Shown one piece after another: positions 17,185-45,299 of a stretch of 64,000 bases of DNA (the stretch's first letter is position 1; every line of letters starts with the position of its first letter). Origin of the DNA: Theobroma cacao (taxonomy: Eukaryota > Streptophyta > Magnoliopsida > Malvales > Malvaceae); the NCBI RefSeq assembly GCF_000208745.1, contig NC_030855.1:12861998-12925997 (forward strand), given 5' to 3'. A program made the translations under genes and the position numbers. Under the pieces are notes generated by a model. It had not been told where the DNA came from. It did no database searches and was given only the letters and a program-made list of their open reading frames with translations.

Positions 17185-17471
17185 CAATTCATTTATGTTG
17201 TTAGCTTATTTAGATGCCAATTAGGCAAGTTGTCCGTTAACCAAAAGATCCATAATAGGATATTGCACATTCCTTGGTGATAGTTGCATCTCTTGAAGCC
17301 CAAAAACAATCTACTATAGCCAGATTAAGTGCAGAGGCAAAATACAAGGCATTAGCCTCCACAACTATTGAACTTACATGGATATCTTACATTCTCCAAG
17401 GCCTTGGCCTATATACATCACAACCAACTCTCTTTCTATGTGAAAACCCTTTTGCCTTTTAAATGACTATC
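17185..17471 (+). pseudogene. Ty1/copia RNase H remnant, first part
   Basis: The plus strand encodes degraded copia RNase H: an 'AYLDAN' block (canonical AYSDADWAG), then 'IGYCTFLGDS', and after a frameshift near 17280 the 'STIARLSAEAKYKALASTT' block (canonical ..ARSSAEAEYRAL..). It stops at 17471, where a solo LTR was inserted, and resumes at 18918. The frameshift and stops show that it is dead. Confidence 0.85.
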
Positions 17472-18912: not shown

Positions 18913-18917
18913 CTATC

Positions 18918-19130
18918 AATCCAGTTTTCATGCTAGAATCAAACATATCAAAATTAACTATCATTTTGTGAAAGAAAAAGTAGCCTTAGGATCCATTGTC
19001 TCAAAGTTTGTTCCATCCACTATCTAGATAGCTGACACTCTTACCAAACCTTTATCTAGATCTACATTTGAAAACTTATGAAGCAAACTTGATCTATGGA
19101 AGCTTCCCTTGGCCAATTTGAGGAGTGTAG
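18918..19130 (+). pseudogene. Ty1/copia RNase H remnant, second part
   Basis: It continues the copia RNase H: degraded 'NPVFHARTKHIEIDYHFV'-like, 'EKVALGSI', 'KFVPS' and 'TLTKPLS' blocks can be read with stops and frameshifts. A probable 3' LTR starts at about 19124 (TGTAGGAGTAATATAG), but its right end was not fixed. Confidence 0.8.
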
Positions 19131-19856
19131 GAGTAATATAGCCCTCACCTAGATTATAGAAGTAAGAACACTAGAACAACAATTGCAGCAGCGAGAACAC
19201 CAACACAATAGCATTGAATCAAAGACAGCAGAACATTCCATTAGCAAATAAAATACATGGACAAAATCTCAGCAAGAAACTTAGCACAGGATTGTCGGCA
19301 ATTCATAAGCAACAATTAATGAAATATCAAATCCTTGATCTCATTTCCTCATTTTGTTGTTGTTGCTGAAAGAACTTACAAAGCCTTCTCAACTTTGTTT
19401 ATATTAATACTTTTCAATATTGATGTAAAAAACACTAAAAGCAACACAGTAAAAATTAGCCAATTCATTTTTTTTCCTTCTCTTACTCTTTAATTCCATC
19501 TTGAGAAAAAGTCTTAGGTAAAGAGATCTAATTGTAGTCTCTGTGGCATAATTGAGCTATTTCCCTCCTTTCATTGGTCTAGTTGGAGTAGGAGAAACTA
19601 GTCTTGAAAAATATATAACAGTAAGAGAAATAAAAATTGATTAACATTAGCTAAATTTACTATAGTTTTAAAAATCCAGAAGTGGATTTTATACAATAAG
19701 GACAGAACTTTAGGCTACTTGTTGTGTTCAAACCCACTTAATTTAGGTTATCAAGAGGATTACTTAGGCTTGTTGCACTTGACAATAATATTGGGCCATA
19801 ACTAGGTTAACATACCTTCACTTAAACCCCATTTATTTCCTTGCATTTTCCACATA
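19131..19856. other. Probable copia 3' LTR and spacer
   Basis: The position right after the copia RNase H and a TGTAGGAG start suggest the 3' LTR of that element; an end near 19812 (TTAACA) is possible. No gene is seen. Confidence 0.4.
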
Positions 19857-19865
19857 TATAATAAT

Positions 19866-20265
19866 GGTCAAAAGACTTATCTAGTTCCTATACTCTTCAA
19901 TTTAGCCCTTGTACTTAAAATCGAAGCAATTTAGTCTCTTGATTTTGGAAATTGCTCCAATTTAGTCCTTTTCCCTAACGACATCCACTTTAATCGTTAA
20001 AAGAGATTACGTCAGTATTGAAGTGGCGCTGACATGGTAAACTTTGATGATGTGACAATGTATGTGTGAATGGCATGATGACATGGCAATGCCATGTCAC
20101 TTTTGAATGATGATGTGGCATGGCAGTGCCATGTAGTAGACAAAGGAAAAAAAATTTCTTGCCTAAAAAAAATCAAAAAGACTAAATTGAAGAACAATTT
20201 AAAGTATTGGGACTAATTTGGGTAAAAATTCAATGTATGGGGACTAAATTGAACAAAAAAATATA
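19866..20265 (+). repeat. MULE left terminal inverted repeat
   Basis: This ~400-base arm pairs with the right arm at 36392-41296. The core holds alternating 'gatgtggcatggcagtgccatg' type inverted units, so the arm is itself rich in small palindromes. Confidence 0.85.
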
Positions 20266-21890
20266 TTATGCTAATAAAAGAAATGCCACATGGCATTTCT
20301 GGTCAGATGCTGCTAGGGGGGTTATTTGGCTTTTAAGGTTCATTTCTCATTAACCTCGATAATTATCCTTAAACAGTGGCCAAACCCTAAACCCACTGTT
20401 ATCGTCGCTGGAACCTTTAACCCTTGAAATTCTAACCACTTGAAATTGAGAGATAACGGTAAATCGAGAGTGAAACCCAACCTAAACATTAAACTAATAA
20501 TGAAACGCCACCTAAATACTAAATCGAGATTGAAATCTAGCCTGAACACTAAATTGAGAGTAACGAATTGAGAAATTTTGAAACTGACAAACCCACCTAA
20601 AAGCTTGAAACTCAACCTGAAATTGACAAACGTTGAAAGCTTTTAAGCCCGAAAACAACAAACCTTGGAAGCTTTCAAGCTTGAATTCAGGGATGCTTGA
20701 AAACTGAAATCGAGACAATTGATAGGTGAGAGGTCGAAAGAAGGAAAAAAATCAAGAAAAGGAAGGGGAAAGAAAAAAAGAAAAGGTTACTAGTATAGAA
20801 GAACGAGGTACCAATTCATTTTGTTGCTAATGAACAGTATTAGTTTCTTTTTTAAAACGATGATCGATATTGGGTTTTGTTTTTTTCATTTTTTATTGTT
20901 GCTGATGTATATGTTTATAATATTAGGTTGTGTTTTTAATGAATGCCGATTTGGCTTTGTTTTTTAAATTTGTTATTGTTATTGATGTATTATATAAGGC
21001 AAACAAAATATAGAAAAATAGTAATGCACCAAGATTCTCCTTGATTCAATTTCCAACTTTGGCAGATTAGATGACTGTATGTGGGTACTTTAAGGTGGTT
21101 AGGGCACGTAAAGAGAAGTATGATGTTAATAATAAATTATCCATTTTGAACATATATCTAACAAAAACATCTCAAAGTGTGTAAAGAAAATTAAATATGA
21201 CCCTCTAAACATACTGGTAAATGAAATTGACATGTGAGGATATGATTGGAACAAAATTAATTGAACTCATTAAATCAACTAGTTTATAACTCAATTTAAC
21301 TAAGTTATGTTCAATCGAAAAGAGTACAAAAACAATATAATATGGAGCCTCAATCATTTAGCTAATATTTAGATATTTCTCAATAACATATTTAAATTCT
21401 CATGGACCTTTGTTGATATGTGACAATACTTTCTATGCCAAATATTAAACAAGATTTTTTAGTTTTAGAGTTGTGTTTTCTAGATTCATAGCTTGCATGC
21501 CAAGTTAGTTCTCATCTTTGCATTTTCTTGTAAGATGATGCTTTTAGTTAGTGTTACTGATATGATGAATTAAGAGGACTTTTAGTTAATGTGATGTTTG
21601 CAACACATAAGTTTTTTTTCTAGAATTCATGGCACTTAAATGTGTAGTATTTGTTTAGATCTATTTACCTGTAGCTTTTAATTGGCCATGCCTAAGTCTA
21701 GATATTGTTGAGTTGTAGTATATTCATGCTTCTATTATTTTGATTAATTTTTTTTCTGCATTCTTACTTAGCATTCTATTCTCCACACAGTTAACGACAA
21801 ATTCAATTTTAATGTTCAATTCATGGTCAAATATTAGATTTGTATTTGTTTTAACGTATGCTAATTAAGTCTTTAAATTTTATCATGCAG
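20266..21890. other. MULE 5' region, non-coding; short tandem repeats at 20455-20590
   Basis: It lies between the left TIR and the transposase start. Positions 20455-20590 contain about four degenerate ~35-base units of the type 'aaatcgaga.tgaaa.c.agcct.aacacta'. The minus-strand frames here are low-complexity by-products. No captured host gene is recognised. Confidence 0.6.
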
Positions 21891-21909
21891 ATAACAATTG
21901 CTCTTAAAT

Positions 21910-22638
21910 ATGCTTTCATCATGGAGGGATCTTAATTCATGAACCCAAGTTTGCATATAAAAGTGGGAAGAGGAAGATGGTAGATATATCGGATATCGAT
22001 ACCATTTGTTATTGGACTTTATTACAGATGGTAAAGGCTTTAAAATATGATATAGGATTGATTAAAGGCTTATATTATCAAGATGGGAATGGTTTGAGAG
22101 TAATTTTAGATGATAAAAGTGTCATTGATTTGTGTAGATTACTTAAGGAGAAAGGTCTTCTTTCTATTTATGTTGACCATGGGGAAAATACTCAACAGGG
22201 TACTCCAATCCTAAAGCAATCAATGAAGATGTGGAGTTTTTATTATTAGCTAATGAACTTGGAAATGGTGATAGTCAAACAAATGATAATGAAGTAGAAG
22301 GTTTAAATGAAGATGAAAAGGGTTTAAATGAAGATGAAAAAGGTTTAAATGAAGATTATTTTGATAAAGCATGATTAAGTGATGAAGGGGAGAATGAGTT
22401 GGCAATGGCTAGGGAAAAGTAAAAGAATTTAAGGCAAGTAGAGATAAGTTGCTAGTTGTTGCATCAAAAGAATTAGATGAGGAAGGGCCATCTAAATCAT
22501 TTGAATCAATAGCTGCAGGCCCATCTAAAGTTATTGTCAATCATTTGAAGTGACTGGAAATGATAGAGGCCCAACTATTGGACTATCAAGGGTAGAACAA
22601 CATAGTGATTATATTGACTCTAGTGACTCAAGGAGTTA
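21910..22638 (+). pseudogene. MULE transposase, N-terminal part
   Basis: The reading around 21915-22200 gives an 'FHHGG' start, then 'DISDIDTICYWTLLQM', 'YYQDGNGLRVILDDKSVIDL' and 'YVDHG', the layout of the PB1-like N-terminal domain of plant MuDR-type transposases. An acidic linker follows, with three repeats of GLNEDEK (22300-22365), then 'SDYIDSSDSRSY', a Ser/Asp-rich stretch typical before the MuDR domain. Frameshifts and stops occur near 22230 and 22370-22540. The coding sequence is cut at 22638 by the Athila-type insertion and continues in frame at 25486. Confidence 0.8.
22300..22365 (+). repeat. 21-base coding tandem repeat (GLNEDEK x3)
   Basis: Three consecutive units of about 21 bases (ggtttaaatgaagatgaaaa) encode an acidic heptad in the linker of the MULE transposase. 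The period is a multiple of three, so the frame is kept. Confidence 0.85.
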
Positions 22639-22849
22639 TTGTCATGAATTGCATCAACATCTCTTCCATAGTAAGCTTTTTCTTAGGGATAGGAGATTTT
22701 ACTTGTGGTGGAAAGTTAGGAAGATTGTTAGGCCTTGGATTTAAAGGTCTTAGATTATTATTCCATGAGAAGTTTGGATGATTCATCCAACTAAGATTAA
22801 ATGCATTGGAATATGGGTTATTCTGCTATTTGTTGAAGTTCCCAACAAA

Positions 22850-23869
22850 CTGATTAGATGGACATTAATCACTTGAATGGTTATCTCCACACAAATCACA
22901 AGTTATAAAGGATTTTTGAAAAGCATTAACTCCTATTGAGTCAAATCTCTTTGTCAAAGCAGCTACTTGTGCAATCAAAGCATTCAATGCATCACTCTGA
23001 TAAACACCAGCATTTGTTCTATAACCAAATCTTTTTGAAGGCCATTGGTAATTATTGGATCCCATCTCTTCCAACAAATTATAAGCTTCATCAGGATTTT
23101 TACCCATTAATGCCCCATTAGCAGCGACATCAATTATAGATCTGATTAAACTGACCAACCCATTATAGAATGTCTCAACTTGAAGCCATTAAGGAAGCCC
23201 ATGGTGTGGACATCTTCTAAGAAATCTCTAAATCATTCCCAAGCCTCATATAAGGATTCACCATCAAATTGTGTGAAAGAAGTTATATCATTCCTCAACT
23301 TCACAGTCTTTGCAAGTGGAAAGAATTTTGCCAAGAAGTTTTTAGCCAAGTCCTCCCATGCAGTAATAAATCCAGTGGGCAGTGAATTTAATCAACTTTT
23401 TGCCTTATCTCTTAGTGAAAAGGAAAGAGTCTTAATTTAATAGCATCATCAATCACCCCGTTATCCTTGAAAGTATCGCAAATTTTCAAGAAATTAATCA
23501 GATGGGAATTAGGATCATCACTGGGTAACCCACCAAACTGAACGGAAGATTGAATCATCTGAATGTAAGCAGGCTTGATCTCAAAATTGTTTGCATTGAT
23601 AGGAGGTCTCCTAATGCTTTGGTGCAAGTCTTATAAAAAAAAGTAACTACATAATCTAGCAGAGCTTTGTTCTTTTCAAGAATATAAATGCCAACATTAT
23701 TACTATGATTATTATTATTATTATTATCTTCAGCCATTGTGTGATTTAGAGTTTGAACTTGCAAATTTTCCTTCTGAAATCTTCTAGAAGTTCTTTCTAT
23801 CTCTAGATCAAAAGGAACAAGATTCAAGTTTCTCTTTCGCATACAACAACCAAAGATGCCTGAAAGCAA
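22850..23869 (-). pseudogene. Athila/Tat-lineage gag, frameshifted
   Basis: From high to low coordinates: an Asn-rich N-terminal part (AEDNNNNNNHSNN), 'RRPPINANNFEIKPAYIQMI' and 'FGGLPSDDPNSHLINFLKIC' (retrotransposon gag core), a frameshifted middle with 'RRCPHHGLP.WLQVETFYNG', then 'AANGALMGKNPDEAYNLLEE', 'NNYQWPS' and a 'CDLCGDNH' zinc-knuckle-like motif. These blocks are characteristic of gag from the OTA (Athila/Tat) branch of Ty3/gypsy. At least two frameshifts and stops around 23160-23410 disable it. The reading continues to about 22640 ('LTMEEMLMQFM') before being cut. Confidence 0.88.
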
Positions 23870-23957
23870 GCAAAAAAAATAAAAATTAAAACATAAGGTT
23901 TGAATTAAAATTAAATTTGTTTGGTATTAGTATTAGTAAGAATTCTAGAAAAAGAAT

Positions 23958-23975
23958 TCCTCAGCAACGGCACCA
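23958..23975 (-). other. Primer-binding site, tRNA-Asp type
   Basis: The minus strand reads TGGTGCCGTTGCTGAGGA, a degraded match to the TGGCGCCGTTGCCGGGGA complement of the plant tRNA-Asp 3' end used by Athila elements. It lies a few bases inside the LTR end. Confidence 0.85.
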
Positions 23976-23981
23976 AAAACT

Positions 23982-25480
23982 TATCAATTACAATTCTACT
24001 TACGCAAGTATACGTATCGAAAGGATAGTATAATGAAAAATAGAGAATCAATCCCATAGAGAATTGATCTAGAATATTACTAAGTACTAAAATTAAAACA
24101 ATTTAGTTTTATTCAAACAATCAAAAATTTAATAACTAATTAAACTAAAAACTACTCAACTAAAACTAAACTAATTAACATTAATAATCAAAGAAAAAAT
24201 ATAATGGATTAAAAATCAAATTGAAAAAGCTTAGGATTACAATATCCCTCACACTGCATTTTAATCTTACTTCTCTCTTAACTCAAACCAATGGGTTGAA
24301 TTGCTAACCTAAAGTTCTCAATTATTTATAATGTTCTCTTAAGTTTCTTACAAAAATATCTACTTAAAGCAAAACATTATATTCTTAGTGAATTGAAATT
24401 AAAATAAACTTATTAAGTTCAGGCTCTAATCTAGCTACATACGATATATAGGTATGTTTCTATCCTATACACAAATCAATTAATATGATCATATGCTATT
24501 CCAATTCTAGTTTACACTAAAGTCCCATTCCCAAGTTTGTTTAGGTTCCTCCATTAATTAAATTGATGATTGGGCAATTAAATGCATTAAGAACAAATTG
24601 GAATAAACAATTCAATCCCATCAATAATAAGCTAGAAAGAGATTAAAAATTTAAACTACATGTGAATTCAATTGCAAACTTAGAAAAATAAATCTAACTA
24701 CTCATAATTGCAAAAATGAATAAAAACTTATGAAGTTTAGCTATCAAGAGTAACAAGAATAATAAAAGCTAAGGAGGAAGAAAATAAATATTTTTACAGC
24801 CTTGATCTTCAATCTTTAGACTCAGCTTTTAGCTTCTTGAATCTTTCTCAAGATTTCTCTTCAATGTGTGTATACTATGTATATAGATGTGTGGCTATAT
24901 GTGTATATCTAAGTGGCTAACTTCTCCGTAAGCCAACTATTTATAACCTTATGTAACTAATTCTACCTAAACTAAACTATTTTGGTCTAAAAACTCATAA
25001 TTTGGGCTTAGAATAAGTGTAGAGCCCAATAAGAACTTAACCAGCCCGTAGCCTAATTACTGCACTTTATTAACTTTGACTTTAATTTTCCTCATCTTCG
25101 ATGCAGAACTAGGTGACGTTATCTCATAAAACTTGTATCTCTGTCTCTTATCTTTCCAATGGTCTAAGAATCGCATCATTTGGAGTTTTAAAATGAGAGT
25201 TATGCTCAAAATGCCGCGACATATACAAATAAGATCTAAACTCCTTAAACACCTTTCTTCACCCAATTAAGCTTTAGTCTTCTAGAATCCTATAGAAACA
25301 TAAAAAGTAATAAATAAAAACTAAAATACAATAAATAAACATAAAATAAAATTAACTTAATAAAAATAAAGTAAATAGAAAAATAACTAAAAAATAACTA
25401 AATTTTAACCTCAACTTAAGAACTTAACTAGCTTTTAAGAACAATTAATATAAAAATAATTCTATTTCATACAATTATGA
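23982..25480 (-). repeat. 5' LTR of the truncated Athila-type element
   Basis: About 1.5 kb, colinear with the plus-strand solo LTRs at 17472-18912 and 31139-32629. The boundary with the internal region is set by the primer-binding site. The minus-strand short frame at 25057-25266 lies inside it and is not a gene. Confidence 0.88.
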
Positions 25481-25485
25481 GTTAT

Positions 25486-26400
25486 ATTTCTACAAGCTCT
25501 AGGTCTGAAGTTGATGTGGCACAAAGGGTCAGGTCGAGTAGGAGGTTTCGCACTTCGGATCAACTGATATCGAACTTCTTTGTGGGTCAATCTTTCAAAG
25601 ATCCAAGACACTTCAAAGCTATTTTGTGTGAGTATAGTATGGCTAAGTAGTTTTCTTTCATCTTCAAGAAAAATGACAAGGTTAAAGTTGAGCTAAATAT
25701 ATTGTAACTGGTTGTGAGTGAGAGATATTAGCTTTGAAGCATGGGAATGATAACTCGTTCAGAGTGAAAACCTATCTCGGAATCCATAATTGTTTACCCA
25801 TAATTAAGAATAAGTGAGTGAAAGCAAGGGTTTTGGCTAGGAAGTTGAAAGACGATATCATCAAGATGCCATTCCTAAGGGAAAGACAAATTAGAGTGTT
25901 TGTGAAAAATAGCTAGGTGAGGCAACTAGTCTAACAAAGGCTAGAAGAGCCAAGTTGAGAGTGATGGAGGAAGTGAGAGATAATTATGTAAAGAAGTTCA
26001 GAAGATTAAGACAATATGTTGATGAGCTTTTATAGATAAACGAAGTCTCAACCATTAAAATAGAGGTGGATAAGTCTACACCAGATGAGATAGCAGTTTT
26101 CCATTGAATGTATATCTGCTTTAGGACATTGAAGAATAATTTTTTAAAAGGTTGCAAATTTATATTTGGATTGGATGGTTGTTTCTTGAAGGGTTTAATG
26201 AAAGGATAGCTTTTGGTTGCTGTTACCTTCTTGCATGGGTAGTGGTTAGTGATGTTGAGAACAAAGACCATTTGAAATGGTTTTTGGAGCTATTATGTGC
26301 TGATCTGGGTATTGAAAATGGAATGGACCATCATGAGCGACATGCAAAAGGTATTTTTAAATATAAAACAGTAAATAAGACTATTAGAATTTTTTAAATA
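25486..26400 (+). pseudogene. MULE transposase, MuDR domain and first part of the DDE core
   Basis: It begins 'ISTSSRSEVDVAQRVR', then 'FFVGQSFKDPRHFKAILCEYS', the start of the MuDR N-terminal domain, with a stop (TAG) right after 'SMAK'. A frameshifted DDE core follows: 'FGLDGCFLKG' (first catalytic Asp), then stops, then 'SDVENKDHLKWFLELLCADL'. Several frameshifts and stops mean no functional enzyme. The frame peters out near 26400, before the solo LTR at 26550. Confidence 0.85.
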
Positions 26401-27814
26401 TAATTTGATGTTATGTACTGTATGTATGTTTTGTATCTTTTTATGAATCTTTTAATAATCACATGCTGGAAATTATGATATGAATTTAGTGTTTAGCTTT
26501 TACATTGAAATAAATAAACACATGCTGTAAATTATCTAAGCATTCTTTTTGTGAAACCTCGACCTTCATAGACGTGTAACGGAGGTAGACATGATGACAC
26601 AAATTAGGGGTAATTTTATCATTTTTCTTAGTGAGCCCCTAGAAGTGAGTTTTTCTAATATTATTAAGGTCTAAGTAGACCTAAGGAATAAATGAATGAT
26701 GCATATAATAATAAAATAAATGTAAAAAATAAAAATAATGATAATTTTCATGGTAGGGGTAAAATGGTCATTTTGGGTCTTGAGTCTAAATTTTTAACTT
26801 TTCTTAAATCTGAGTACCTCTAATCTCTTGTGGACCTTTTATCAGTGTTAAAGAGTAAAAAGTCTTAGCCAAAAGGAAAGAAGAAGGCAAAGTCAACTAT
26901 ACAATGGCATTTTTGTAAATAGGTGGAACTTAGTCAACTATAGGTTAAATATCTCATTTTTTCCAGCACTTTCTCCTCACTTCCAGCAGCTTTTTCTTCT
27001 TCTTCCCATTTCTTTTCTCCATTTCACGTTTCCATCTTCCATGGAAGTCATCCCTTGATACCTCAATAACTTTCTCAAAGCAATTTCAATTCTCATGCTT
27101 TGGCACACTTTTTCGTAGGATTTTTTGTGCTCTTTCACTTCTACACCTCAAGAACCCTCAAAAGTCTTTCCTCAATACTTTCTCTCACTAGCTAGACATT
27201 TTAGAAAGAGAGAGAGACTTTCCATAATAGCTTGACAAAATCTTGGAAAGGAATTCAACTACAAAACCACTAAGGTGAGTAATGAGTTAGGTTTGATTTT
27301 AAGTTGTTGATGATGACCAATAAATAGAGTTATGGGTTGTTTTATTGTTGAGGGTTGTTTATTTATTCTTAGTGTGACTAGAGTAGTGTAAACTAATGAC
27401 TACTCAAATGGTAATTGGAAGCTAGTAAGGAATAACTAGCAAAACTTGATTTAGGAAAATAGCTTTTGGAATAGTATTCATGTAAATTGAGTTGGTGTAA
27501 TGCTATATGTGTGATAGGTTCTAACAAGGCCCCACATCTTCACTTGGAGCATTAGTGAAAGTCGGAATCAATTAAAGAATCAACAAAGACAAGTGAGTGA
27601 ACTTGTATTAAAATGTTTTGGGATAAATGCATATGTATTTGGTTGAATAACTTGAAATATTTTTATTGAACTTTTCTCTAAATATGCATGGGAACAAGAC
27701 CTTGATGAAAAGTTTTTATGTTGTGAAATATGAATGTGATGAACTCATATGGTTCTACATTATGTTGATGTGTATGTTAAGCATTGAATGGCACTATTGG
27801 GTGATAATTGTAAC

Positions 27815-27985
27815 CGTGCGTGTGCGGTGTAGGAGTGCACATGACGGTGATAATGGTGTGCTATGTGAGTGCACACACTGATGATATATGCCATGTGCGA
27901 TGTGGGAGTGCACATGATGATATTGCCTTGTGCGGTGTGGGAGTGCACAGGATGATTCTAGCTATGTGCGGTGTGGAGGTGCACA
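27815..27985. repeat. Minisatellite in the LTR: about five 31-47 base units
   Basis: Units have the form 'tgtgcggtgtgggagtgcac' followed by 'atgatgat' and a variable tail. Each holds GTGCAC or a near match. Short frames on both strands here (rich in His, Thr and Ser on the minus strand) come from the repeat and are not genes. Confidence 0.85.
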
Positions 27986-28109
27986 TAAGCTGGTGAGACG
28001 AGAGTTGTATACATGTATACACATACATAGAGAGGTTAAGGAAAGTATTATGTGTTTGCATTGAGTATTGAATGTTAATATTTGACAAATGCTTTCCAAT
28101 GGATTTTCA

Positions 28110-28350
28110 CTGCAGCAAAAATGAATTTCATTATGACCAAAATTCTTTTAATTTTATTGACCTGTTTCTCGCTATAGGGAGAAACTCTCAAGTGTTGGGG
28201 GCCTGACTAGCCCAGAATTTCACTGCAGCGAAAATGCATTCTCACTGTAGCAAGAAACTCTCGGGTTGTTGGTTCAAAAATTTGCCCTGAAGTTCGCTGC
28301 AACAAAAATTTGTAGCTGCAGCGAGAATGCCTTTCCGTTGTAGCGAGATT
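28110..28350. repeat. Degenerate 'cgctgcagcgaaaatg' repeats
   Basis: At least six variants of 'cactgcagcgaaaatg / gctgcagcgagaatg' recur in both orientations of the CTGCAG core within the solo LTR. Spacing is irregular, 20-60 bases. Confidence 0.7.
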
Positions 28351-29043
28351 CACTCTACTATGCTTGCCTTGTTTGAACTCTACTGTACTTTCACTTTTTA
28401 ACTTCTTTATTGATCATGGATCTTTCAACACTAAGGCACTCAATAATCAAGAGTTGAATTAAGAGGTTTTAACAAGAAATTGAGCTAAATTGCATTGTTT
28501 TCAACATAAATGCACCATGTTTTCTAAAATTTCTCGTATTAATGCTTGTTCCCTTCCTATGTTCACTCACTGGATTTATACTCACTCTTTTTAACTTCAT
28601 GTTTTTCAAATTTAGAGGTAGTTGGGACCTAGACTAATGCGTCCACTAACAGTCACCTTTCGGTAGGTACCATGGCATTTGGTAGCTGTACCTTCACCCA
28701 AGGTCACTCCGTTGGAAGTCAATGAGTCTTTTTGCCAGTGTATCTGTACATGTGATGTAAATCACTAAGATACATGTCGTAAACAATAAATGTTTATTTT
28801 GATTAACGTTGCCACTATGAGTTGGCTATAGATGACATTATTTTAGATTATATAAATGTAAGTAGTTGACTGCCATTGTAAATTGTTGAAATAATCATAC
28901 TTGAGAATCACGAAATATGACATTTAAAGTGATGGATAGAATGATGAACAGGATCATACGAAAAGGCTTGCTTGGGCTTAGTGGGCTATGCCCTTTGGGC
29001 CCATGCGCCAGTCATGGCCCGGGAATTGGGTTATGACACTTTT

Positions 29044-29900
29044 CCACCATCAAGATCATAAATTTCAACTCCTAAACTCATGCATAAGTTGCCATCTATA
29101 CATGATCTTTCAAAACATTCCCAATTGTGCATAGATTTAAAGGAGGAAAAGTAGGATTACAAAGCAATATAGCAGTTCATGAATAACTCAAACTCTTTTT
29201 ATTTTCTATTTAAAAGAGTCACTCCTTCCAATATTTTGTTTACTCAAAACTTTGTCTACTATAATATGATATATGATATATGTCTAAAATTTCCTAAATA
29301 TTTAAGATTTACAAGAAAAACTTCTTTTCTGCTAGACTTGTATAGTTATTAATACTATTAATAGGGTGTTTGATATTGCCAAAAGTAAGTTTGAATCTTT
29401 TAATTGTCTTAACTTTTAAGGTCACCAAAAATATCTTACTTAGTGTTTGAGCAAAACAAAACTAAATTGCTTCAATTAGTTATAAAGACTAGGATTTAGA
29501 ATGTGGGCTCGAAATTACATAGCATGGGTCATGCCATTTAATCCCACCCTCGCTTGACAAAAAACCACATCAACTGTTTTCATTGAGATGCATCAACCCC
29601 TAGAATATTTTTATATTCCAACAATAGCTTGCTTTTTCCTTTCATTTTTGAACTTATTTTAAATGAGCTCTTGTTATCATTTTGACTATTATTGTAACTT
29701 CATGTTGATATTGCCATATCTAATTGGTAAAGCTTCTACAGTATGATATATGCACTTTTCTTCTATAGTATGATATCTAAGATTGGAAACTTGTAAATAA
29801 GGCAAGTAATAAATTTATCTTTAATATATATCTTCTCATTATTTACTTATTTATTTTGTTGTTAGAAGGGCTTTTAAGTGCTATTAGTGAGCTTCTTCTT
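29044..29900. other. MULE intron-like or degraded stretch
   Basis: The MULE continues here after the solo LTR, but no transposase reading is recognisable until about 29905. AT-rich with stop codons in all frames. Confidence 0.5.
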
Positions 29901-29904
29901 TTCG

Positions 29905-31138
29905 TTGAACAACAAAGGTGTGCACGACACATCTACGCAAGGTGGGGGAAGAAGTTCTAAAATGAAGACTTAAAGTTCCAATTTTGTCGTTGTGTTAGAT
30001 CCCCAAAGTAGCCAGAGTTCAAGAAGCAAATGAAACTTTTATGCTCCATGAATGAGACTACATACAATCACTTGATTGAAAACTAGGATGCTATGTATTG
30101 TTGTCAAGCATTCTTTTCCAATTTCTCCAAGTGTGATGTCATTGACAACAACATGTGTGAGACATTTAATGGATTAATAATAGAAATAAGATGCAAAGCT
30201 ATCATCAGCATGCTTGAGGATATTAGGCTTTATGTCTTGAGGCAATTGGTTCAAAATAGGGAATACGACATGAAGTGGAAAACTGAGTATAGCCCTTGTA
30301 TACTCACCAAATTAAAGAAGTCTAGATTGCTGGCAGTTAAATGGGAGGTGGATTAGAATGGGGTCCATTTGTATGAAGTCTTTTGGGAAAATCCTAAAAA
30401 TCTGGTAAAGGAGAGCTACATGGTATCTTTGGAGCATGCAACTTGTTGTTGTTGGGCTTGGGACATTAGTGGAGTGCCATGGCAACAGGCCATCAGCGCT
30501 ATTTATTATAAGGGAGAGGACTTACAAAGTATTTAGCATATTATTTTAAAAAGACTGAATACCTTAAGGCCTATGAACAACATCTCCATCTTGTTAGAAG
30601 GCCAATGTTATAACCTCAATGAAATGTGGAGGTTGTCTTACCTCCATATGTGAAGAGATCTGCTGGACAACCAAAGAAAGAGAGGAGAAGAGAAAAAGGT
30701 GAAGGGCTAAAGAAAAGGATGTCAAAGGTCAAAAAGAAAATAAAATGCTTTATTTGCTATCAAGAAGGACATGATAGGTCAAATTGTCCTATGCGAAATG
30801 TAAGTGTTATCTATTATGTATCTTGTTGCTTGATTCAGTTATTATTTATATTGCTAGTTACTTACCTTTTCTAAGTCTTATGTCTAGGTTCAAACAAGCA
30901 CATAAAAAATTCATAGTCGAAAGAGGAAATCTTATACTAGTAAAGCGAGTGAAGTTGCTACTGGTGCACTAAGTGAAGCTGCTACTATTGCACCAAGTGA
31001 ACTTGCTACTAGTGCAAGTCAACTTGCTGTTGATGCAAGTGAAGGTGTTGTTAAGTCCACCGCATTTATTGCTGTTAAAAGGAAAAAAATGGGGGTTGCT
31101 AAAAGAAACCAATCTACCGCTACAACTACTAAGGGCTT
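29905..31138 (+). pseudogene. MULE transposase, C-terminal part with SWIM remnant and zinc knuckle
   Basis: Readable blocks in order: 'CARHIYARWGKKF' (29917 on), 'SKCDVIDNNMCETFNGLIIE' holding the last acidic catalytic residue, 'LEDIRLYVLRQLV' and 'MKWKTEY'. A SWIM-type zinc finger remnant follows, 'CCCWAWDISGVPW', in which the usual PCAH is PWQQ, so zinc binding is lost. Then come 'VVLPPYVKRSAGQPKKERR' and a CCHC knuckle, CFICYQEGHDRSNC. A Ser/Ala-rich tail follows. Stops (for example before 'NEDLKF') and frameshifts interrupt it. It is cut at 31138 by a solo LTR and continues at 32635. Confidence 0.88.
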
Positions 31139-32629
31139 TGATAACTTTATGATATAGAGTTATTTGGGTTTAATTTTGATAGTAATCTAACGTAGTTCTT
31201 ATAGTAATACATAGAAATTAGTGAGTTTTATTTAATTATTTTAAATTTTAATTTAGGTGAGTCAATCTAATCTTAGTTAATTTTATACTTAATTTGGTGT
31301 TAATGTAGTTAAGAGAGATTGTTATTGATTTATTTATGCTTTTGTAAGTATGTGATGAAAAAAGAATTTTAATGAAAGAAGGAGAGCAATTTCAAGGTGT
31401 AGACTTGCACTGCACATGTTTCGGTATTTTGACCATAACTCTCTCTACAGAGCTTAAAATGAAGTGATTCTTAGACCATTGGAAAGATAAGAGAAAAAGA
31501 TACAATTTTATGTTTACCACTTTGTCCATTTTGGCTTAAAAGGTGGTCAAAACTCTTATCGAAATTAATACATTGTAGCAGTCCTAAAACAATTATAATT
31601 TCTATTAATTAATTGGGCAAGGCTGCGACCCACATAGTTTGATGTGGACATCCCAACTGGAATAGACTTCCTTCTTCACCCAACTTGGCCTAACTTCAAA
31701 AACCTATAAAAATAACCTTTTGAAAGACTTTAAGGAGAGAAGAACGAAACATCATATTGACATCTAAGAGTCAAGCCACAAAGTCATTGAAGCTAAGAAG
31801 AATTTGAAAGATGCAAGGAGATTTGGAGATCAAGAATACAATTCTTGAATTTTTCTATCTTTTTTTTATTCTCTTATTCTCTTGGTTTTATTTTTAATGT
31901 TTAAACTTTATTCAATGATGATGTGTGACTTGATGGGGAACTAATTCATTAATCTAAGGTTATGATTGAACTCAATATGTAGTCTAAATTATTTATCTAT
32001 CATTTACTTATGTTTGATAGATTTACGTTGTTTATTTTATTTTGATCTTAATGCTTCTGATTGACTGGCCACCAATTAGATTGAATTGGAAACCTACATT
32101 AGACTTTGATGAAGGAGATTTGGATAGACCTTGAATAAAATAGCGTATGATCGAATGCACTTAGTTGATTAGGTGGTTTGATTTGCATATAAGATAGACA
32201 TATACTTATTAGCCATACGTAGCTAGAATTAGAGCACAAACCTAATGAATCTTTCTTCAATTTAATTTACATAGACATATAGTAAATTAATTGGGAGAGG
32301 TATTTTTATGAAAAACTCAATAGAGAGTTATAAATAATTTAGGACTCTAGGTTATCAACTTAATCCATTAAACTAAGTTAAGAGAGAAAACTAATAATCA
32401 AATGAAATATTAAAGGATATCATAATCTTGGTCTGATAGTTGATTGAAGTTTTAATTTAATAGTTTTAATTTTTTTAATAAATTTAATTATTTGGATAAG
32501 CTTAGGGTGTTATAATTTTAGTAGTTAATAATTAGGAATTAATTCAATTCTCTATGGGATTGATACTCTACTTATCATCATATTATCTTTGCAATATGTA
32601 TACTTGCATGAGTAGAAAATTGAACAACA
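31139..32629 (+). mobile_element. Athila-type solo LTR (1491 bases), TSD GGCTT
   Basis: It starts TGATAACTTTATG and ends GAACAACA, with exact GGCTT on both sides (31134-31138 and 32630-32634). The MULE reading 'TTKGF' before and 'FILEDVVVPRLKLKY' after joins across it. Same family as 17472-18912. Confidence 0.93.
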
Positions 32630-32634
32630 GGCTT

Positions 32635-33243
32635 CATTTTAGAAGATGTTGTTGTCCCAAGATTGAAATTGAAGTATACAAGCCCTAAGAGAAAGGGGAC
32701 AGTAGTCTACAAACACCAAACCTAATCTACCTTGGCACCTACAACTCCTCCACAACATATTTTTGGTATAAATGTGAGTAACAATTTAGTCCTTGTTCAT
32801 GTCATGTTGTTTGATGATTTTGCTGGTTGGATATTTGATGATTTAGGGTCCATGCATCTTTCAATAAGTTGGAAGGCCAAATCAATTGGTTGTTGCAATT
32901 GGCCATGGGGATTCAAGGTCATTGATATCTAGTAGGCAGTTATTGGTGAGAAAAATTATGACTTGCAACATGATCATATTGCTTTAGCATTATTTTTGTG
33001 ATTCAAACATTGAATTTGTTCATATTGCCATAGGTAATCACACGCTAGAAGCAATCCAGTAAATCGGATTCGGTTACTGATTTGCCCACTCAAGAAAGCA
33101 TTGAAAATGCTTAAGAATTTGTTGTGGTTTGTTGTGTGGTTTATATGCTGTCTTGGTATAATTTGTTGGTATATTTGTTTTTGTTGCTAGGTACTTAAAT
33201 GTTGTGTAAATATTGTTGCCATGATTTTGTCTATAATAGCTAG
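32635..33243 (+). pseudogene. MULE transposase C-terminal tail and 3' region
   Basis: It continues the tail of the transposase ('FILEDVVVPRLKLKYTSPKR', 'APTTPPQHIFG') and soon runs into stops. From about 32940 it is non-coding MULE sequence up to the LINE insertion. The last 12 bases are the LINE target-site duplication. Confidence 0.7.
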
Positions 33244-33518
33244 TTTTTTTTTTTATGCTGGAAGTTCTCGCAAGGCCCAACTACTCTGTAATTATTTTAT
33301 TAATAATCGAAAAGTTAAGTACAAAGGGGAGGGGGACCGAAACCTTAACTCTAGAATTACATGAGCATATGACAAAATCGAAAAAAACATTAAAAGTAGG
33401 AAAATCTTATTTACCTGCATAACTAGTGATGCTACAGTAAAATAGAGATCACCCACTATTACAAAGAAATAAGGAATTAAAATAAGAAAAATAAATAAGG
33501 AGTACTACTCCTTTACAA

Positions 33519-34442
33519 CTATCTAAATCGAACATAAGGTAAATTTAGTCTATCTAACTTAAGCATACCATGTAGTTCACCTTGTGCTTCAGTAATTAGA
33601 CAAAGATTCTGATGTGTGTATCCTTGGTTTGACAGGAAATATGCAGCTTGATTACCTTCTCGAAAAATGTGCAAGATTCTATAAGAAATACTACTCAGGC
33701 CCTTTCTAATGGACGTCAACAAATATCGTATATCGTGGGACCCTTTCTGATATTGATGGATCATCTGAATCACCACCAACGCATCCATTTCTATCCATAG
33801 CCTCTCAATATGTTGTTCTTTACATAGGAGTAATCTTCTGAGCAATGCACGTAGTTCTGCATGCAAAGAATTACAACGACCTATATTCTCTGAGAAACCA
33901 AATACAAGCTTACCTGTATGATCTCGGAGCAATCCCCCACTTGTTGCACTCTGACAATTGCGGGAACTACCATCTACATTCAATTTATATTCACCTGTAA
34001 ATGGTTTAACCCAATGAATAATTTGAGGAGTTGTACCATGTTTAGGGGGAAATAGGAAACTCCACATAGCTGCTATATCTTTGTCTACTTTCCACTGCCA
34101 CTGTTTCAAAGGGGAACCGTCATGTAACTGCCTTAACAATTTCATAGTCTCCCACACCACTCTGTCCGGATACATGCCCAAATGCCTGTGCTTAGCATCA
34201 TTTCTTTCCAACCATAAAAACCAGCATATGAATAAGGGAATTAAGATGCGGATATGACCCTTTTTTACATAATCACCAGAATAATACCATGCCCATATAA
34301 TCTGAGAAATATGTTGAGGAGTTGAAACATAGATTTGAAAAAATTTTGCAAAAAAATTCCAAACTTGTTTCGCTACCGAATTATCCCAAAGAACATGAAT
34401 TAGTGATTCCTCAGAATTACAACATACGCATTTAGAAGCCAA
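33519..34442 (-). CDS. LINE zf-RVT/RNase H region (open, 307 codons)
   Basis: An uninterrupted frame starting with a Cys pair motif (MASKCVCCNSEESLIHVLWD), the end of the zf-RVT domain of plant LINEs, followed by 'ICWFLWLERNDAKHR'. The plant LINE RNase H comes next: 'YKLNVDGSSR' (first catalytic Asp, about residue 156), 'SLHAELRALL' (Glu), 'WIEMDALVV' (Asp), and finally 'FREGNQAAYFLSN', where the family has AAD. The last catalytic Asp is therefore Tyr and the domain is probably inactive. The ATG chosen is only the first in the frame; the natural frame would come from upstream. Confidence 0.85.
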   Translation of the reverse strand: MASKCVCCNSEESLIHVLWDNSVAKQVWNFFAKFFQIYVSTPQHISQIIWAWYYSGDYVKKGHIRILIPLFICWFLWLERNDAKHRHLGMYPDRVVWETMKLLRQLHDGSPLKQWQWKVDKDIAAMWSFLFPPKHGTTPQIIHWVKPFTGEYKLNVDGSSRNCQSATSGGLLRDHTGKLVFGFSENIGRCNSLHAELRALLRRLLLCKEQHIERLWIEMDALVVIQMIHQYQKGSHDIRYLLTSIRKGLSSISYRILHIFREGNQAAYFLSNQGYTHQNLCLITEAQGELHGMLKLDRLNLPYVRFR

Positions 34443-34575
34443 ATGAAAACCTTTTTTCCTTCATTCGAAGTTCAACCAAGATCCAATTGTTTAATGCTCT
34501 CCATAGGAAAAAGGAAATAGATAGTGGAATGCTTCTGTGCCAAATTAAGGATCCCACCACATTAGGGGATTTGCG

Positions 34576-35560
34576 CTACCTTACTTCCTCCCAAGCACTC
34601 CAAGTAGAGAGTTCTCCATTCGCAGTAAGAGCCCAGTAAGCAACATCCTCATGTGATCTATCGAATGGAATCTGTAAAATCTTATCAACTAAATTCATAG
34701 GCAGGTATAATTTCAATTTATCCATGTCCCAAGTATCACCCATATAAAATTTATTAACATAGGACATATCATTTTGGAATGAAGGGAAAGATGTTACCAA
34801 GGGATGGTGTCCCATCCAACAATCGTGCCAAAAAAAAAAAGCTCCTCTTTTCCTAACCTCCATCAAATCTTCTACAATGTCATAGCTCGACCCCCGACCA
34901 TCCGTTTCCACACTTGAGAGTCACATAACTTCGATTGTACATAGTGAGGTATTCGGCCCTTATAGTATTTTGTTCTCAGAAACTGTGTCCATAGGTTATT
35001 ACCAGTTTGGAATCTCCACCATAATTTTAATGTAAAAGCCTAACATACATCATTCAGATATCAGATATCAAGTCCTCTTTCAGAACATGGAAAAGTACTT
35101 TTAGACCAAGCCGCCTAATGCATTTTCTTACTCTTAGTAGAATCACCCCATAAGAAGCTATTGAAATGCCACTCTATTTTCTCTATCACTGTTGCCGATG
35201 GTTTGGGGACTTGCAATAAATACATCGAAAGCGAAGAAAGAACGCTTCTAAGCAATGTGATACAGCCTCCTGATGATAGAACCTTATTCTCCCAACTTGA
35301 AACACGATCTCGAATCTTAGTAATTAAAGAATAAAAAAGAATTACCTTTTTCAATCCTTTGTACAAAGGAGCTCCGAGATAAGTAACAGCGAGTATTTTA
35401 TTCTGAAAACCGGTCGTATGAGATATGATTTGCCTCTTAGAGAGTGGACAACTATTAGCTGTTATAAAACAGCTTTTCTGATGATTAATCTGCTGCCCAG
35501 ATACCTGTTCATATTCTTGTAAGAAACTCAAAACTTTCTGCAAGGCTGAACGATTATTCA
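34576..35560 (-). pseudogene. LINE reverse transcriptase C-terminal and zf-RVT part, frameshifted
   Basis: Positions 35115-35560 encode the typical plant LINE block after the polymerase core: 'FLQEYEQVSGQQINHQKS', 'YLGAPLYKG', 'ISSWENKVLSSGG'-like, and 'FNSFLWGDS'. Positions 34576-34911 encode the next block ('AFFFWHDCWMG', 'AYWALTANGELS'). Between them (34912-35114) and after 34576 the frame is broken. The element starts within the reverse transcriptase because it is 5'-truncated. Confidence 0.85.
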
Positions 35561-35572
35561 TATAATAGCTAG

Positions 35573-36391
35573 CTTTCTTTTGTAATTGGCATATATTGTA
35601 CAGGGGCTCTATTTGATTTGTGTCAAACTATTGTTAGCTTACAAGCCTCTTATAAGGGTTTTGTAAATTGTTTTTCATATGTATGTGTGTGTGCCTTTCT
35701 TTCCTAAGTAGATAGATGTTCTTTTCATATTATAATTATAATTACATAATTTCCTTAAGAATGTGCTATTTATGAGAGTGATTTCTTTTATTCTAGGCTT
35801 GTTTGTAGATGTTATTCTTGTTATGGTTATTGGTCTTTGAAGCTCTTATGAGCTAGAGCAATTTGTTTTGATGAAAGCTTTTTGTGATTTGTAATGTAAC
35901 CTAGGCTTGAGATTGTTGGAAATATTGGATCCTTGCTTTTGCATGATGGTTCCTTTTGGTTTACATTTTGTTGAAGTTCACTTTTTCTTGGGGTTGAGTT
36001 ACAAATGTTTTGTTAGTCTCCACTAGTTTTGTATAGTTTATTGTGTGCAAGGGAGTTGGTTTTTGTGTAAATGCTAGGCTTATCGAGTATTCTAAAGAGC
36101 CCTATGGTTGATTTTGATTTTTAGGGTGTGGTTGTGATTGACAAGGTGTTTTTGTGCTAAAAGTCTAACCATCTTAGTGTAAACTTGAAGCAGCATCGTA
36201 ATCTTTGCTTAATGGAATTTAGATTTTTAACTTTCAACAAAAAAATTAATTGTCAAAGTACCTTTGAAAGAAATGATCATAAAGCTAATATATGACTCCA
36301 TTTACTTTTATTTTTAGTCCAATATATTTATTATTGAAATGATACCAACAAGAAAAGAAAATAATTTGAAAAGTGAGTTAACTATATTTTT
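35573..36391. other. MULE 3' region, non-coding
   Basis: T-rich sequence between the LINE and the right terminal repeat of the MULE. No gene is seen. Confidence 0.6.
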
Positions 36392-36656
36392 TTGGGTTCA
36401 ATTTAATCCCCATACATTGAATTAATATTCAAATTAGTCCCTATACCTTAAATTTTTCTTGAATTTAGTCTTTTTGATTTTTAAGGTGGGAAATTTTTTT
36501 TTCTTTGTCTGCCATGTGGCTGTGCCACATTACCATGTCAATGTTGCATGGCACTACCATGATCAGACTGATATGATGTTGTGGCAATGCTACGTCATCA
36601 TGTTTGGGTGACGTGGCACTACCACGTCATCGTGTCATTCACTCATACGTAGCTAT
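36392..36656 (-). repeat. MULE right terminal inverted repeat, inner part
   Basis: Reverse complement of about 20050-20265 in the left arm. The outer part continues at 41113-41296 after a nested LTR. Confidence 0.85.
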
Positions 36657-39600
36657 TGTAACGACCGCTTCTCGATCACTACCGACGTTCGAGTCTTGTG
36701 GGAGGACCCACCAAGTCTCGAGCAAGTCTTATTTGAAACCTTTGTATAACAATGAACCCATTCCATTGATTTATTTAATTACTTGAACCATACATCCTTT
36801 ATGTAACATAACTTAACATACATTTACATTAATACTATTTACAATCAAATTATGCCACGAATGACTCGACCTTTAGTAGCGAAGTGACTCAAAATGAAAT
36901 GCCATGAGACGCCTTTACCTATCCGTGGTGAACCATAAGTGCTAATGATTGCACGTTAGGCCAATCACTATCTGCAAAAGGGAAATAAGGGGGTGAGTCT
37001 CATAAACTCAGTGATCATCGACTCCGTGAGTAGGGCATAGATGGGAAACAAGCATAAAGCAGAAAAGATTTGAATATATAAAAACATAAGAACATGTAAA
37101 CCATTTAAAAGCAAATGGGACATTGTGCCTTAGGCATGGAACCAAGGATTTTTATGCACAAAATATTTAACCATCATTGTGTCAAAACCAGTGTGAGTGA
37201 AAGATTTCTATCATCGAAATTATTTCACATCTTTACTCAAATCAAATCAGTATAATCTCGCACGCTCTGGTGAAATCAAATATTATCAAAGCTTATACAC
37301 AAATTTGCAAATCACCTCATATGCGAGGAGCTAAATCCAACATCATAGTAGAAATAAGGGAGCTGTGGAAAAGCTTATAGTTTTCACCATGCAAAAGCAT
37401 ACAAGTTTGAAAACCCAAAGAGATATCACTCTCGAGTAGGTAATAGAAATAAAAACTCGTCGACCCGCTTCCACGTAATAACATCTAGGAGCCTCACACC
37501 ACTGGATCCCACAGCCATGGCAGTCTCAACGATGTTGGTCGACATCGAAGAATCAAGGGGTCGCAACCACGTAAATCACTTGTGGCCTAGCCACATATAT
37601 ATCACAGACCATGGCCCTATCCATTTCTAACAGCCCGTCGACGACCCAAAGGTTCTCTAGCTAGAGCTCACTTGTGCACAAGGGTCACACTTTTTCGATG
37701 TGACATCCGACTTACTCTCGAATCTCCCGGTTTAATAAAACCATTTAAAAATCAAGTTGGTTTCTCAAAAGCTTATTTTAAAACTATTTCCAAAGTACCG
37801 ATCACAGTAACATGGTAAAACCCCCTTTTTGTAAGGCTTTACATTATAAACCTTTGCATGAGATTTTAATATCAAAACGACATGGTGAATATGTGATTTA
37901 ATTCATGAATGTACATCACATAAACAATAAGGCACATTTTGATAGAAATAGTGGTAAAAAGCTTGTTTCTCGATTTTAAAATCCTTTATGTATATAACTT
38001 GTATATATATATATATGGTCAAGACAAGTTCAAATACTTTGACATTCACAAATTCTTAGGATATCTACTAGCTCATGCTGTCCACAAATGACATTTAAAA
38101 TAAATCAGCACGTCTATCAATTGTATAGCAATATATATAGTATGGAAATTTGGAAATCAACACCCCCTACTCACCTCATAATAGCGGGATATTACTTCGC
38201 TATCGACTCGGATGTGTATCTAGCTAATTTTACTTGCCGGTCACCCGTTACTTCCTCCGGCACGCCACCACAGCAACTTCTCTACTTATACACTTCCTAG
38301 CAAAAATTTGAACTCAATACACTTAATTATTCTCGAGTACGGTTAACACATCAATCATTAAATCCTTAACCTAATTTCATATTTTTCATCAATTTCAATA
38401 ACAAGCATTTAACAAGCATTCCACATACTATCAACCGATCATAATCAACATAAAACATTTTAGACATATTACATGCTTACCTTTCGGTTTCAGCTTGAAT
38501 TTCACACATATAGCTCACAATTTTCTCATACCCATTGTCACCATTGCTACCACAAACATAAACAATTAATACACATCTCATTTCTTTAGTTTACTTGTGA
38601 TTTCAAGACCAAAATACTTACCCATAGCTTATCTAGCGTAAAATCACCATGGATTCCAAGATTGACCCATAAGCATGCATCTATTTCTTTCAATTCTTGA
38701 AGGACCTTTGCTGCCACAAACATCTTCACACAATTACCAACTCATTTCCTCAAGAAATTGTTGGTCCCTATAATATGTGCTAGAGAGAGGGGTGAATAGA
38801 ACAATTTGGCTCTTAACAATATTGAAAACTAATTTCTAGAACTTAAGAAAATAAAAACAGAGTATAAGATGCACAGTAATTTAGAGTGGTTCGGTCCAAG
38901 ACCTACGTCCACTACCTTGATTATCCACCCAAGGATTTTCTCACAAATTCACTAAACACTAGTGAAATTCACAAGCTTTCACCAAGCTTTACAATGGCTT
39001 TTACCAAGCTCAGCCAAAACCTTTTACACTAGTTTTTCACAGGCTCAACTAAAACCTAAAGTGGTTTTCCAAGGCTTAACCACAACCTTCAACAATCAAG
39101 CTATCCCAAGCTTGAACAATCCCTTAGAGTGACTCCCTCACTCTAAGAATACAAGAAAAGTAATAAAATAAGGTACATATGATCACTGGTTGATCTGAGT
39201 GGTACAAGATTGAGTACTAAATACAAATGCAAGGAGTAGGCGTTTAAGTGTAGACAAGTGCAGTGAAGCTTTTCTGGTTTTTCAACTTTCTATAGCTCAA
39301 ATCTCTTTCAAGGCTTCTAAAAAACTTGATTCTAATTGTTGGAAGACCCTTTTATACTTGGAGATGCAACTTTGGTGGCAGTTTGACAATTTATGGCTAT
39401 TGGAAACAGTTGAGGATGAGTTCTAGCCGTTAATCTGTCTTGTAGTGCTTTGGTTCAAATTACAGACAGAGAGCTCTTAATCGACTAACTTGATTGACTA
39501 TGTTGGTTTTGTTTTAGGTTGCAGATTCTGGCAGAGAGCAGTTACGACTGACTTAGTCGACTAAGTTGATTCTATTTCTCAAACTCTTCAGCCCACCATT

Positions 39601-41107
39601 TCTTCAATTTGAAGTTTGGTCAACCAATATTCTTCCTTGTTTCACCAATAGGCTTCCTCCTTGTTAGATAGTTACATCTTGTTGTTTTTATTCCTCCTTT
39701 TCTTTTGATATACTCTTTGAGGAGTTAAATGATTAATTTCATATATTAATTTTCTTGCACACTCAAGTAAAGATATTAGACACAAATAAATGAAAATATT
39801 TTATTATCATCAAAAACTAATGGAGCCAACAGAAATCACAACTAAATTCAAAGCTCTACTTACCTTCCTTAGCTTGGAACTACTAGGCCGAACCTTGTCT
39901 TTTTCTTTTTTCTCCTTTCTTTCTTTCTTTCTTCCTTTTTTTCCTTTCTCTCTTTGCTTCCAAGCTAATTCTCTCTCTTTTTCTTTCCATGGTGCGGGTT
40001 TTCTCAAGGTAAAGATATTTTGCCATTCCTTGGTGTGGGTGGATTCTCCCAAGTTCCCCACTACTCAAATTTTCTTTCTTTTCTTCTCTCATGGGTAGAT
40101 TGCCCAAAGCTTGGTTATTTTGGCATTTCCTTATTCTTTTATGTAGTTAAAATTACAAGCCAAAAAGGCTTTTGGACTTTTCCACCCACCACCTTCATTG
40201 ACCATTCTTTTTCCATTATTTTCTTTTCTTTTCTCTTTACATGTCATGCCAATCAATTCTTCTCTTTGACCCATTCAAGTCACATGCAACTCAATTTCTT
40301 TTTTCTTCATTTGACCACCATTGCACCAATCACATTACATGCAAATAAATTTTAGTCTCATTCTTTTTTTTACTTCACATGGTGGGGGTCCCCTATGTCC
40401 CCCACTAACTATTCCTTTTTGTACACTATAGTTTGCATGTAATAGTAAATTTCACATGTATATCTCATATTCTACATAATCTAACCTTCTTTGGTTAGTA
40501 ATTTCCCTTTTAAATTCAAATATTAAAATTTACACATAAGTCCTCAAACTTTTCTTTATTTACCGTGTGAGCCTCCAAACTTTCATCCTTTACAATTTGG
40601 TCCTTCCTTTGCACTTGTACAAATAGGATATAAAATTTGCACTTCACCAAGATGTCACCATAATATTTAAATATTTACTTATCCGTTCTAACTCTATTTA
40701 ATAATGACACGCGAGTCCCACTATCGTCATTTTTTTTTTGAAATTCTTTCCTATTTTTTCTCTCCCACTTAGATTAATCATATAATCCTCCTTCATGACT
40801 AATTTCGACAACAGATAAACTATTAATATTTTAATATTATTTTATTCCAAAATTCTCCACTTGTCTCCTCAAGACCCAAAATATCTCACTTTGTCCTGGT
40901 TCACTTTCGAATCACCTTTTAACTCGCTAATTCATCCTCGATAAAAATATTATTATTTAATTATTATTTTGTTATGTGCAAAATATTTTACTTCAAACTA
41001 TTCTTTTCACACGTCACTGCTCTTTGACACTTAAATTTACGTCAATTGCCTCTTCGTCTTATCGATACGGTTATATTGACTACTATACGAGGGTATGGGG
41101 TGTTACA
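36657..41107. mobile_element. Long LTR in the MULE right arm, TSD GCTAT
   Basis: It starts TGTAACGACCGC and ends GGGGTGTTACA, with exact GCTAT on both sides (36652-36656 and 41108-41112). The arm of the MULE terminal repeat continues directly beyond it. Without the nested LTR at 38759-39831 it is about 3.37 kb. It holds no recognised protein domain. Its left part shares 'gactccgtgagtag' and other short landmarks with the LTR starting at 3474, so the two may be distant relatives. Frames at 39790-40355 come from CT-rich sequence and are not genes. Confidence 0.9.
38759..39831. mobile_element. Copia-like solo LTR (1073 bases), TSD GAAAT
   Basis: It starts TGTTGGTCCC and ends GGAGCCAACA, so the outer six bases are inverted, as in many Ty1/copia LTRs. 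GAAAT flanks it exactly (38754-38758 and 39832-39836). Its body has the 'gagtggttcggtccaagacctacgtcc' type landmark seen in plant copia LTRs, split here only by its length. No coding domain. Confidence 0.9.
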
Positions 41108-41112
41108 GCTAT

Positions 41113-41296
41113 GTCATCAAAGTTTGCGACATCAGCGCTGATGTCATCTCTTTGAATGGTTAAATGGATGCTATTAGAAGGAATGACTAAATTGGAGCAA
41201 TTCTCAAAATCAAAGTACTAAATTGCTTCGATTTGAGTATAAGAACTAAATTGGACAAAATTGGAGAATACAAGGACTAGATAGGTCTTTTGACCA
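41113..41296 (-). repeat. MULE right terminal inverted repeat, outer part
   Basis: Reverse complement of 19866-20050. It ends CTTTTGACCA, followed by the putative TSD TATAATAAT (41297-41305). Confidence 0.85.
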
Positions 41297-41305
41297 TATA
41301 ATAAT

Positions 41306-43555: not shown

Positions 43556-43559
43556 GTGA

Positions 43560-45290: not shown

Positions 45291-45299
45291 GACCATTGT

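Follow-up and report, generated by a model that had tools for sequence, protein, structure and literature searches.

The question raised by this locus is whether 21.4 kb of a 64,000-nucleotide stretch of the Theobroma cacao genome (the whole stretch is referred to as the window) is a single Mutator-like element (MULE), as an earlier note had claimed. The analysis confirmed the reading of window positions 19866-41295 as one MULE, a wreck with six later mobile elements inside, and the claim is upheld by the inverted arms, the flanking repeats, the register of the arms and the collinearity of the transposase. It also supports an original single element of about 7.8 kb that would later have grown to 21.4 kb by insertions with target-site repeats of their own. 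The outer frame of the element is made up of the following features.

19856-19865, unstranded: left target-site repeat ATATAATAAT, 10 bases
19866-20268, plus strand: left arm, one of the terminal inverted repeats, whose outer and inner part both carry AATTTAGTCC-type repeats
36379-36656, minus strand: right arm, inner part
41113-41295, minus strand: right arm, outer part
41296-41305, unstranded: right target-site repeat ATATAATAAT

The left arm has only two inverted matches in a self-comparison of the window (E ≤ 1e-6), and these are the two parts of the right arm. In the outer pairing, 19857-20050 matches 41303-41114 at 148 of 181 aligned positions (82%) with a score of 188, against 40 for the best of 200 shuffles, the alignment extending into the flank. 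In the inner pairing, 19994-20268 matches 36664-36379 at 207 of 264 aligned positions (78%) with a score of 223, against 48 for the best of 200 shuffles, the alignment entering the insertion that splits the right arm (insert 5 below) by 8 bases. Gaps are left out of these counts and both local alignments overrun the proposed limits. Between insert 5 and the outer right arm lies the second copy of GCTAT (41108-41112). With the flanks of insert 5 joined, the right arm aligns with the left at 321 of 387 positions (83%) and the junction carries no gap; gaps lie elsewhere, the right arm having 461 bases and the left 403, a difference of 58. The arms of about 400 bases that had been claimed, the right one split into 36392-36656 and 41113-41296, thus stand far above shuffled sequence with slightly corrected boundaries, and the check that had been suggested, realignment across the removed insert, gives a continuous register at the junction. 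Arm identity exceeds the 75% criterion of PMC3903597 in both parts and across the site of insert 5.

Since the same 10-base word, ATATAATAAT, lies outside both arms, we place the termini of the element at 19866 (GGTCAAAA) and 41295 (TTTTGACC), which are symmetrical; the terminal sequence can also be given as GGTCAAAAGAC. The two copies are identical at 10 of 10 bases and fall in the range of 8-11 bases that is quoted for MULE target-site repeats in the part of PMC6446971 drawn on here and is a criterion in that of PMC3903597. For two fixed places, the local flank composition gives a 10-base match a chance probability of 4.4e-6, and two random 10-mers from the wider flanks agree empirically at 7.5e-6. 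The repeat consists of A and T only, which counts against the reading as a single MULE. The earlier note had a repeat of nine bases, TATAATAAT, and an element ending at 41296; the identity at both ends stood, while the length and the right end gave way to 10 bases and 41295. Nine bases are called typical of MULEs in the part of PMC4486113 drawn on, but a 9-base repeat leaves an unpaired A (41296) at one end only, whereas the symmetrical GGTC..GACC ends give 10, within the 8-11 range (PMC6446971, PMC3903597, both as excerpted), and we consider the shorter version unlikely.

The build of the arms also bears on whether they belong together at all. Each arm is loosely palindromic, with AATTTAGTCC-type repeats whose direction changes from outward at one end to inward at the opposite one. 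This would suit a rival reading in which two MITE-like elements of one TIR family had inserted separately, in opposite orientation, on either side of an unrelated transposase fragment. We regard this as highly improbable, given that an exact 10-base repeat recurs in both outer flanks (with a chance probability of about 4e-6 to 8e-6), that the inner arm ends, inspected by eye, are without the GGTCAAAAG terminus, and that transposase pieces lie in order between the arms. The single MULE is accordingly the preferred reading, and its coding features are as follows.

21908-22246, plus strand: N-terminal transposase piece (P0008 residues 13-98, 38.5%, E 6e-14)
22298-22356, plus strand: 21-base tandem repeat, 2.8 copies, encoding GLNEDEK in the acidic linker
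25481-26350, plus strand: MuDR-domain piece, then the first catalytic Asp (GLDGCFLKG) and the second Asp (MSDMQK), across three frames
26351-29865, plus strand: probable transposase intron, AAAG/GTATTT..TTAG/AAGGGC, containing insert 2
29865-30611, plus strand: transposase piece with NNMCETFNG (catalytic Glu) and a decayed SWIM finger
30623-30795, plus strand: C-terminal piece with a CCHC knuckle, CFICYQEGHDRSNC

A protein search with residues 280-505 of the read-through translation as query kept 11 of 209 candidate proteins. The best homologue is P0001 of Hibiscus sabdariffa (57% identity over 96% of the query region), and further close ones come from Pterospermum kingtungense (P0002, 54%), Ipomoea trifida (P0003, 57%) and Corchorus olitorius (P0004, 55%). 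Seven of the 11 belong to Hibiscus, Pterospermum or Corchorus, three to Dioscorea and one to Ipomoea; the first three genera we take to be Malvaceae, which would place 7 of the 11 homologues in that family. In tblastn the 11 proteins map in order onto 21908-22419, 22595-22639, 25480-26361, 29865-30611 and 30512-30808, in frames 2, 1, 2, then 1, 3, 2, 1, then 3, 2, so that the claimed order of plus-strand pieces is borne out by collinear matches between the arms. The one row outside the element (P0008 at 52166-52104, E 0.71) was taken as chance. P0003 continues across insert 1, with residues 115-129 on its left and 128-197 on its right, the left piece alone having an E-value of 0.36. An intron is likely at 26351-29865 because P0002, P0005 and P0008 continue there without a missing residue.

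Domain searches recognize the family in the homologues: among six scanned with Pfam, PF03108 was found in all, PF04434 in five and PF10551 in four. The N-terminal piece in the window (21908-22246) had no Pfam match. PF26130, which we take to be PB1-like, stands in the precomputed annotation of P0002, P0004 and P0008 and is absent from the direct Pfam scan of the same proteins. Ten separate open pieces from the window gave no MULE match in Pfam, eight having no match of any kind and one weak zinc-finger matches below the cut-off; four read-through pieces likewise gave no MULE match, only a chance-level SMC_ScpA match and weak zinc-finger ones, and a PDB search with the NNMCE piece gave no match. 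From established knowledge of MULE transposases we presume that GLDGCFLKG, MSDMQK and NNMCETFNG supply the D, D and E. The SWIM finger has, by eye, lost two ligands, a Cys and the His (CCC..WQQ against CSC..CQH in P0003). An intact transposase reading frame was not found, the pieces lying in changing frames with stops; the transposase is dead, and the element is not an autonomous (functional) MULE. As regards a captured host gene fragment, the mark of a Pack-MULE, the open frames in 20269-21880, 32635-33231 and 35573-36378 reach at most 100 codons.

Two parts of the protein had been called notable, the CCHC knuckle after the SWIM finger and the acidic GLNEDEK repeats, and neither description held. 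The knuckle in the window scores below the Pfam cut-off, and Pfam names no CCHC domain in the six scanned homologues; by eye, a knuckle follows the SWIM finger in three of these (P0003, P0004 and P0009), while P0001 ends within it and P0002 and P0008 stop before it. SWIM and CCHC fingers are tabulated for several plant MULE groups in the part of PMC6446971 drawn on, and the arrangement is a usual one. GLNEDEK is the product of the 21-base tandem repeat and sits in a variable linker, where P0002 has, by eye, a different repeat. The CCHC knuckle and the PB1-like start are thus ordinary for the MULE lineage.

The remainder of the 21.4 kb is accounted for by later insertions.

22640-25480, minus strand: insert 1, with one LTR, a presumed primer site and partial gag, flanked by GTTAT
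26550-29038, unstranded: insert 2, presumed solo LTR of 2489 bases with TG..CA ends, between copies of CTTTT
31139-32629, plus strand: insert 3, presumed solo LTR of 1491 bases, belonging to one family with the LTR of insert 1 (78%), GGCTT on both sides
33244-35560, minus strand: insert 4, a probable LINE fragment with an RNase H-like domain and a 3' A-tract, flanked by the 12-base TATAATAGCTAG
36657-41107, unstranded: insert 5, a TGTAAC..GTTACA element, presumed solo LTR, flanked by GCTAT
38759-39831, unstranded: insert 6, within insert 5, TGTTGG..CCAACA, 1073 bases, presumed solo LTR, flanked by GAAAT

Five insertions had been counted; the five direct ones stand and the total becomes six, the sixth nested in the fifth. 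The statement that each interruption has its own target-site repeat is sustained, exact repeats of 5 bases, or 12 for insert 4, being assignable to all six, least securely to insert 1. These repeats were assigned after inspection; the chance probability of about 0.002 for five matching bases applies to places fixed beforehand, and here the places were chosen afterwards. Inserts 2, 3, 5 and 6 have TG..CA ends and 5-base repeats; only insert 3 among them has another LTR copy in the window, and inserts 2, 5 and 6 are probably solo LTRs. Insert 4 carries an RNase H-like domain in Pfam (PF13456, 7.9e-20, plus two weak matches), and because this domain and the terminal A-tract are as expected of a LINE, we assign it, with some caution, to that class.

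The LTRs of inserts 1 and 3 agree at 1077 of 1374 aligned positions, flanks included, and the same family occurs upstream at about 17456-18928 (1153 of 1408). A start of insert 3 within 31150-31400 was rejected, the boundary scan having yielded chance-like 6-base words only; alignment to the insert 1 LTR moved the start further left, the GGCTT repeats were checked next, and 31139-32629 is the best choice of limits. None of the nine 6-base words listed near this insert was used for the repeat assignment. Insert 1 we take, by eye, to be an Athila-like retroelement with part of a gag. On the left it starts within a gag-like reading frame, with TGTCATGA, and its right end is ..ATGA, not ..CA. Rival words nearby are a longer chance word, TTATATT, and the 6-base CTCTAG; GTTAT is preferred because in the homologues the transposase sequence reaches 22639 and resumes at 25480, which is also why right ends further to the right were dropped. 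This assignment is the least secure of the six. The ends of insert 1 could reflect a deletion ending exactly at the lost LTR tip or integration of a truncated copy, either of which would be unusual. Antisense to the gag-like frames of insert 1 there is an Rfam match to snoR71 (23196-23301, plus strand, 56.9 bits, cut-off 40); retroelement sequence may have contaminated the family, or the overlap may be due to chance.

When the five direct inserts, each with one copy of its repeat, are subtracted from 21,430 bases, 7,809 remain, in agreement with the original length of about 7.8 kb that had been proposed. That the order of events is recoverable, as had been claimed, holds only for the MULE, which came first, and for insert 6, which entered insert 5 later; how the five direct insertions followed one another is unreadable from the sequence.

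We now put forward a history for the locus. The arms, the flank repeat, the collinear pieces, the repeats around the inserts and the nesting of insert 6 in insert 5 are observed. The best explanation, in which we have great confidence, is one MuDR-type plant MULE with an intron-containing transposase gene, cut-and-paste insertion with a 10-base duplication, and later inserts and decay. We propose that an element of about 7.8 kb carried one transposase gene, with a PB1-like start, a MuDR DNA-binding domain, a DDE core, a SWIM finger and a CCHC knuckle. It would once have been mobile and have arrived as a unit, entering an AT-rich site by cut and paste and thereby generating the 10-base target duplication. 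Later elements presumably entered via their own integrase or LINE machinery, after which inserts 2, 3, 5 and 6 would have shrunk to solo LTRs and a fragment of insert 1 would have remained. Over the same time the MULE would have decayed, such that its own transposase can probably no longer move it.

The arms contain one further regularity. With at most one mismatch allowed, the window contains AATTTAGTCC 20 times, where 9.1 occurrences are expected and none of 100 shuffles reaches 20; 13 of the 20 lie inside the arms. Steps between neighboring units within an array are exactly 31 bases in six of nine cases (29, 28 and 10 in the rest), and repeat searches recover the same period in the arms. 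The orientation is opposite at the tip and the base of each arm, such that the two arrays of an arm face each other, the units at the tip being directed outward and those at the base inward. Because the binding motif of the maize transposase MURA, likewise located in the arms, is about 32 bases long (PMC3310237, as excerpted), our guess is that the AATTTAGTCC units are candidate transposase binding sites. That the facing arrays are binding sites that make each arm a self-mirrored docking site, pairing with itself or with the other arm, is a speculation that we rate as distinctly unlikely.

Other features lie elsewhere in the window. Three MITE-like copies, 79-80% alike, occupy 41600-42090, 45450-45870 and 63100-63540, and two of them lie in opposite orientations on either side of a minus-strand pseudogene (about 43.9-44.3 kb) that looks, by eye, like a protein kinase. 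A further long MULE enclosing this pseudogene (41600-45870) was considered and dropped, since by eye the copies resemble separate MITE-like repeats. Two adjoining direct repeats of about 2 kb (6971-9016 and 9111-11116) are 77.6% identical. An F-box gene piece at 52086-52990 shares 72% identity, over 88% of the region, with a Theobroma cacao protein, and the best E-value among the matches listed (the best 120 of 166 passing, from 235 candidates) belongs to Corchorus olitorius (61%), which points to a host within the Malvaceae; a related fragment was seen by eye at 53345-53614 on the minus strand. A tRNA scan found none.

The locus is well resolved yet ordinary, such wrecks being common in plant genomes, and it leaves the general view of transposons unchanged. 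It adds one well-resolved plant MULE wreck and a testable guess on the 31-base arm units, and it is useful for annotation as a case in which sequence alone sufficed to separate a badly fragmented region into its layers. Compared with plant MuDR-type MULE transposases, the protein has the same order of parts and the same catalytic motifs, with the CCHC knuckle after the SWIM finger, by eye, as in P0003, P0004 and P0009, but the copy in this window is broken by frameshifts, stops and inserts and has, again by eye, lost two SWIM ligands. In the part of PMC3903597 drawn on, more than one third of coding-MULEs in maize and rice contain nested insertions, and this locus resembles them in its arm identity above 75%, its transposase homology between the arms, its target-site repeat within 8-11 bases and the LTR elements among its inserts; it has six inserts, whereas the average per insert-bearing coding-MULE is two in maize and one in rice. 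It shares with the domesticated MUGB genes (PB1 with MuDR, MULE and SWIM domains; PMC3435246, as excerpted) a PB1-type N-terminus fused to a MULE transposase. Unlike the MUG genes, which are conserved host genes, the locus shows arms and a target repeat, and its reading frame is ruined.
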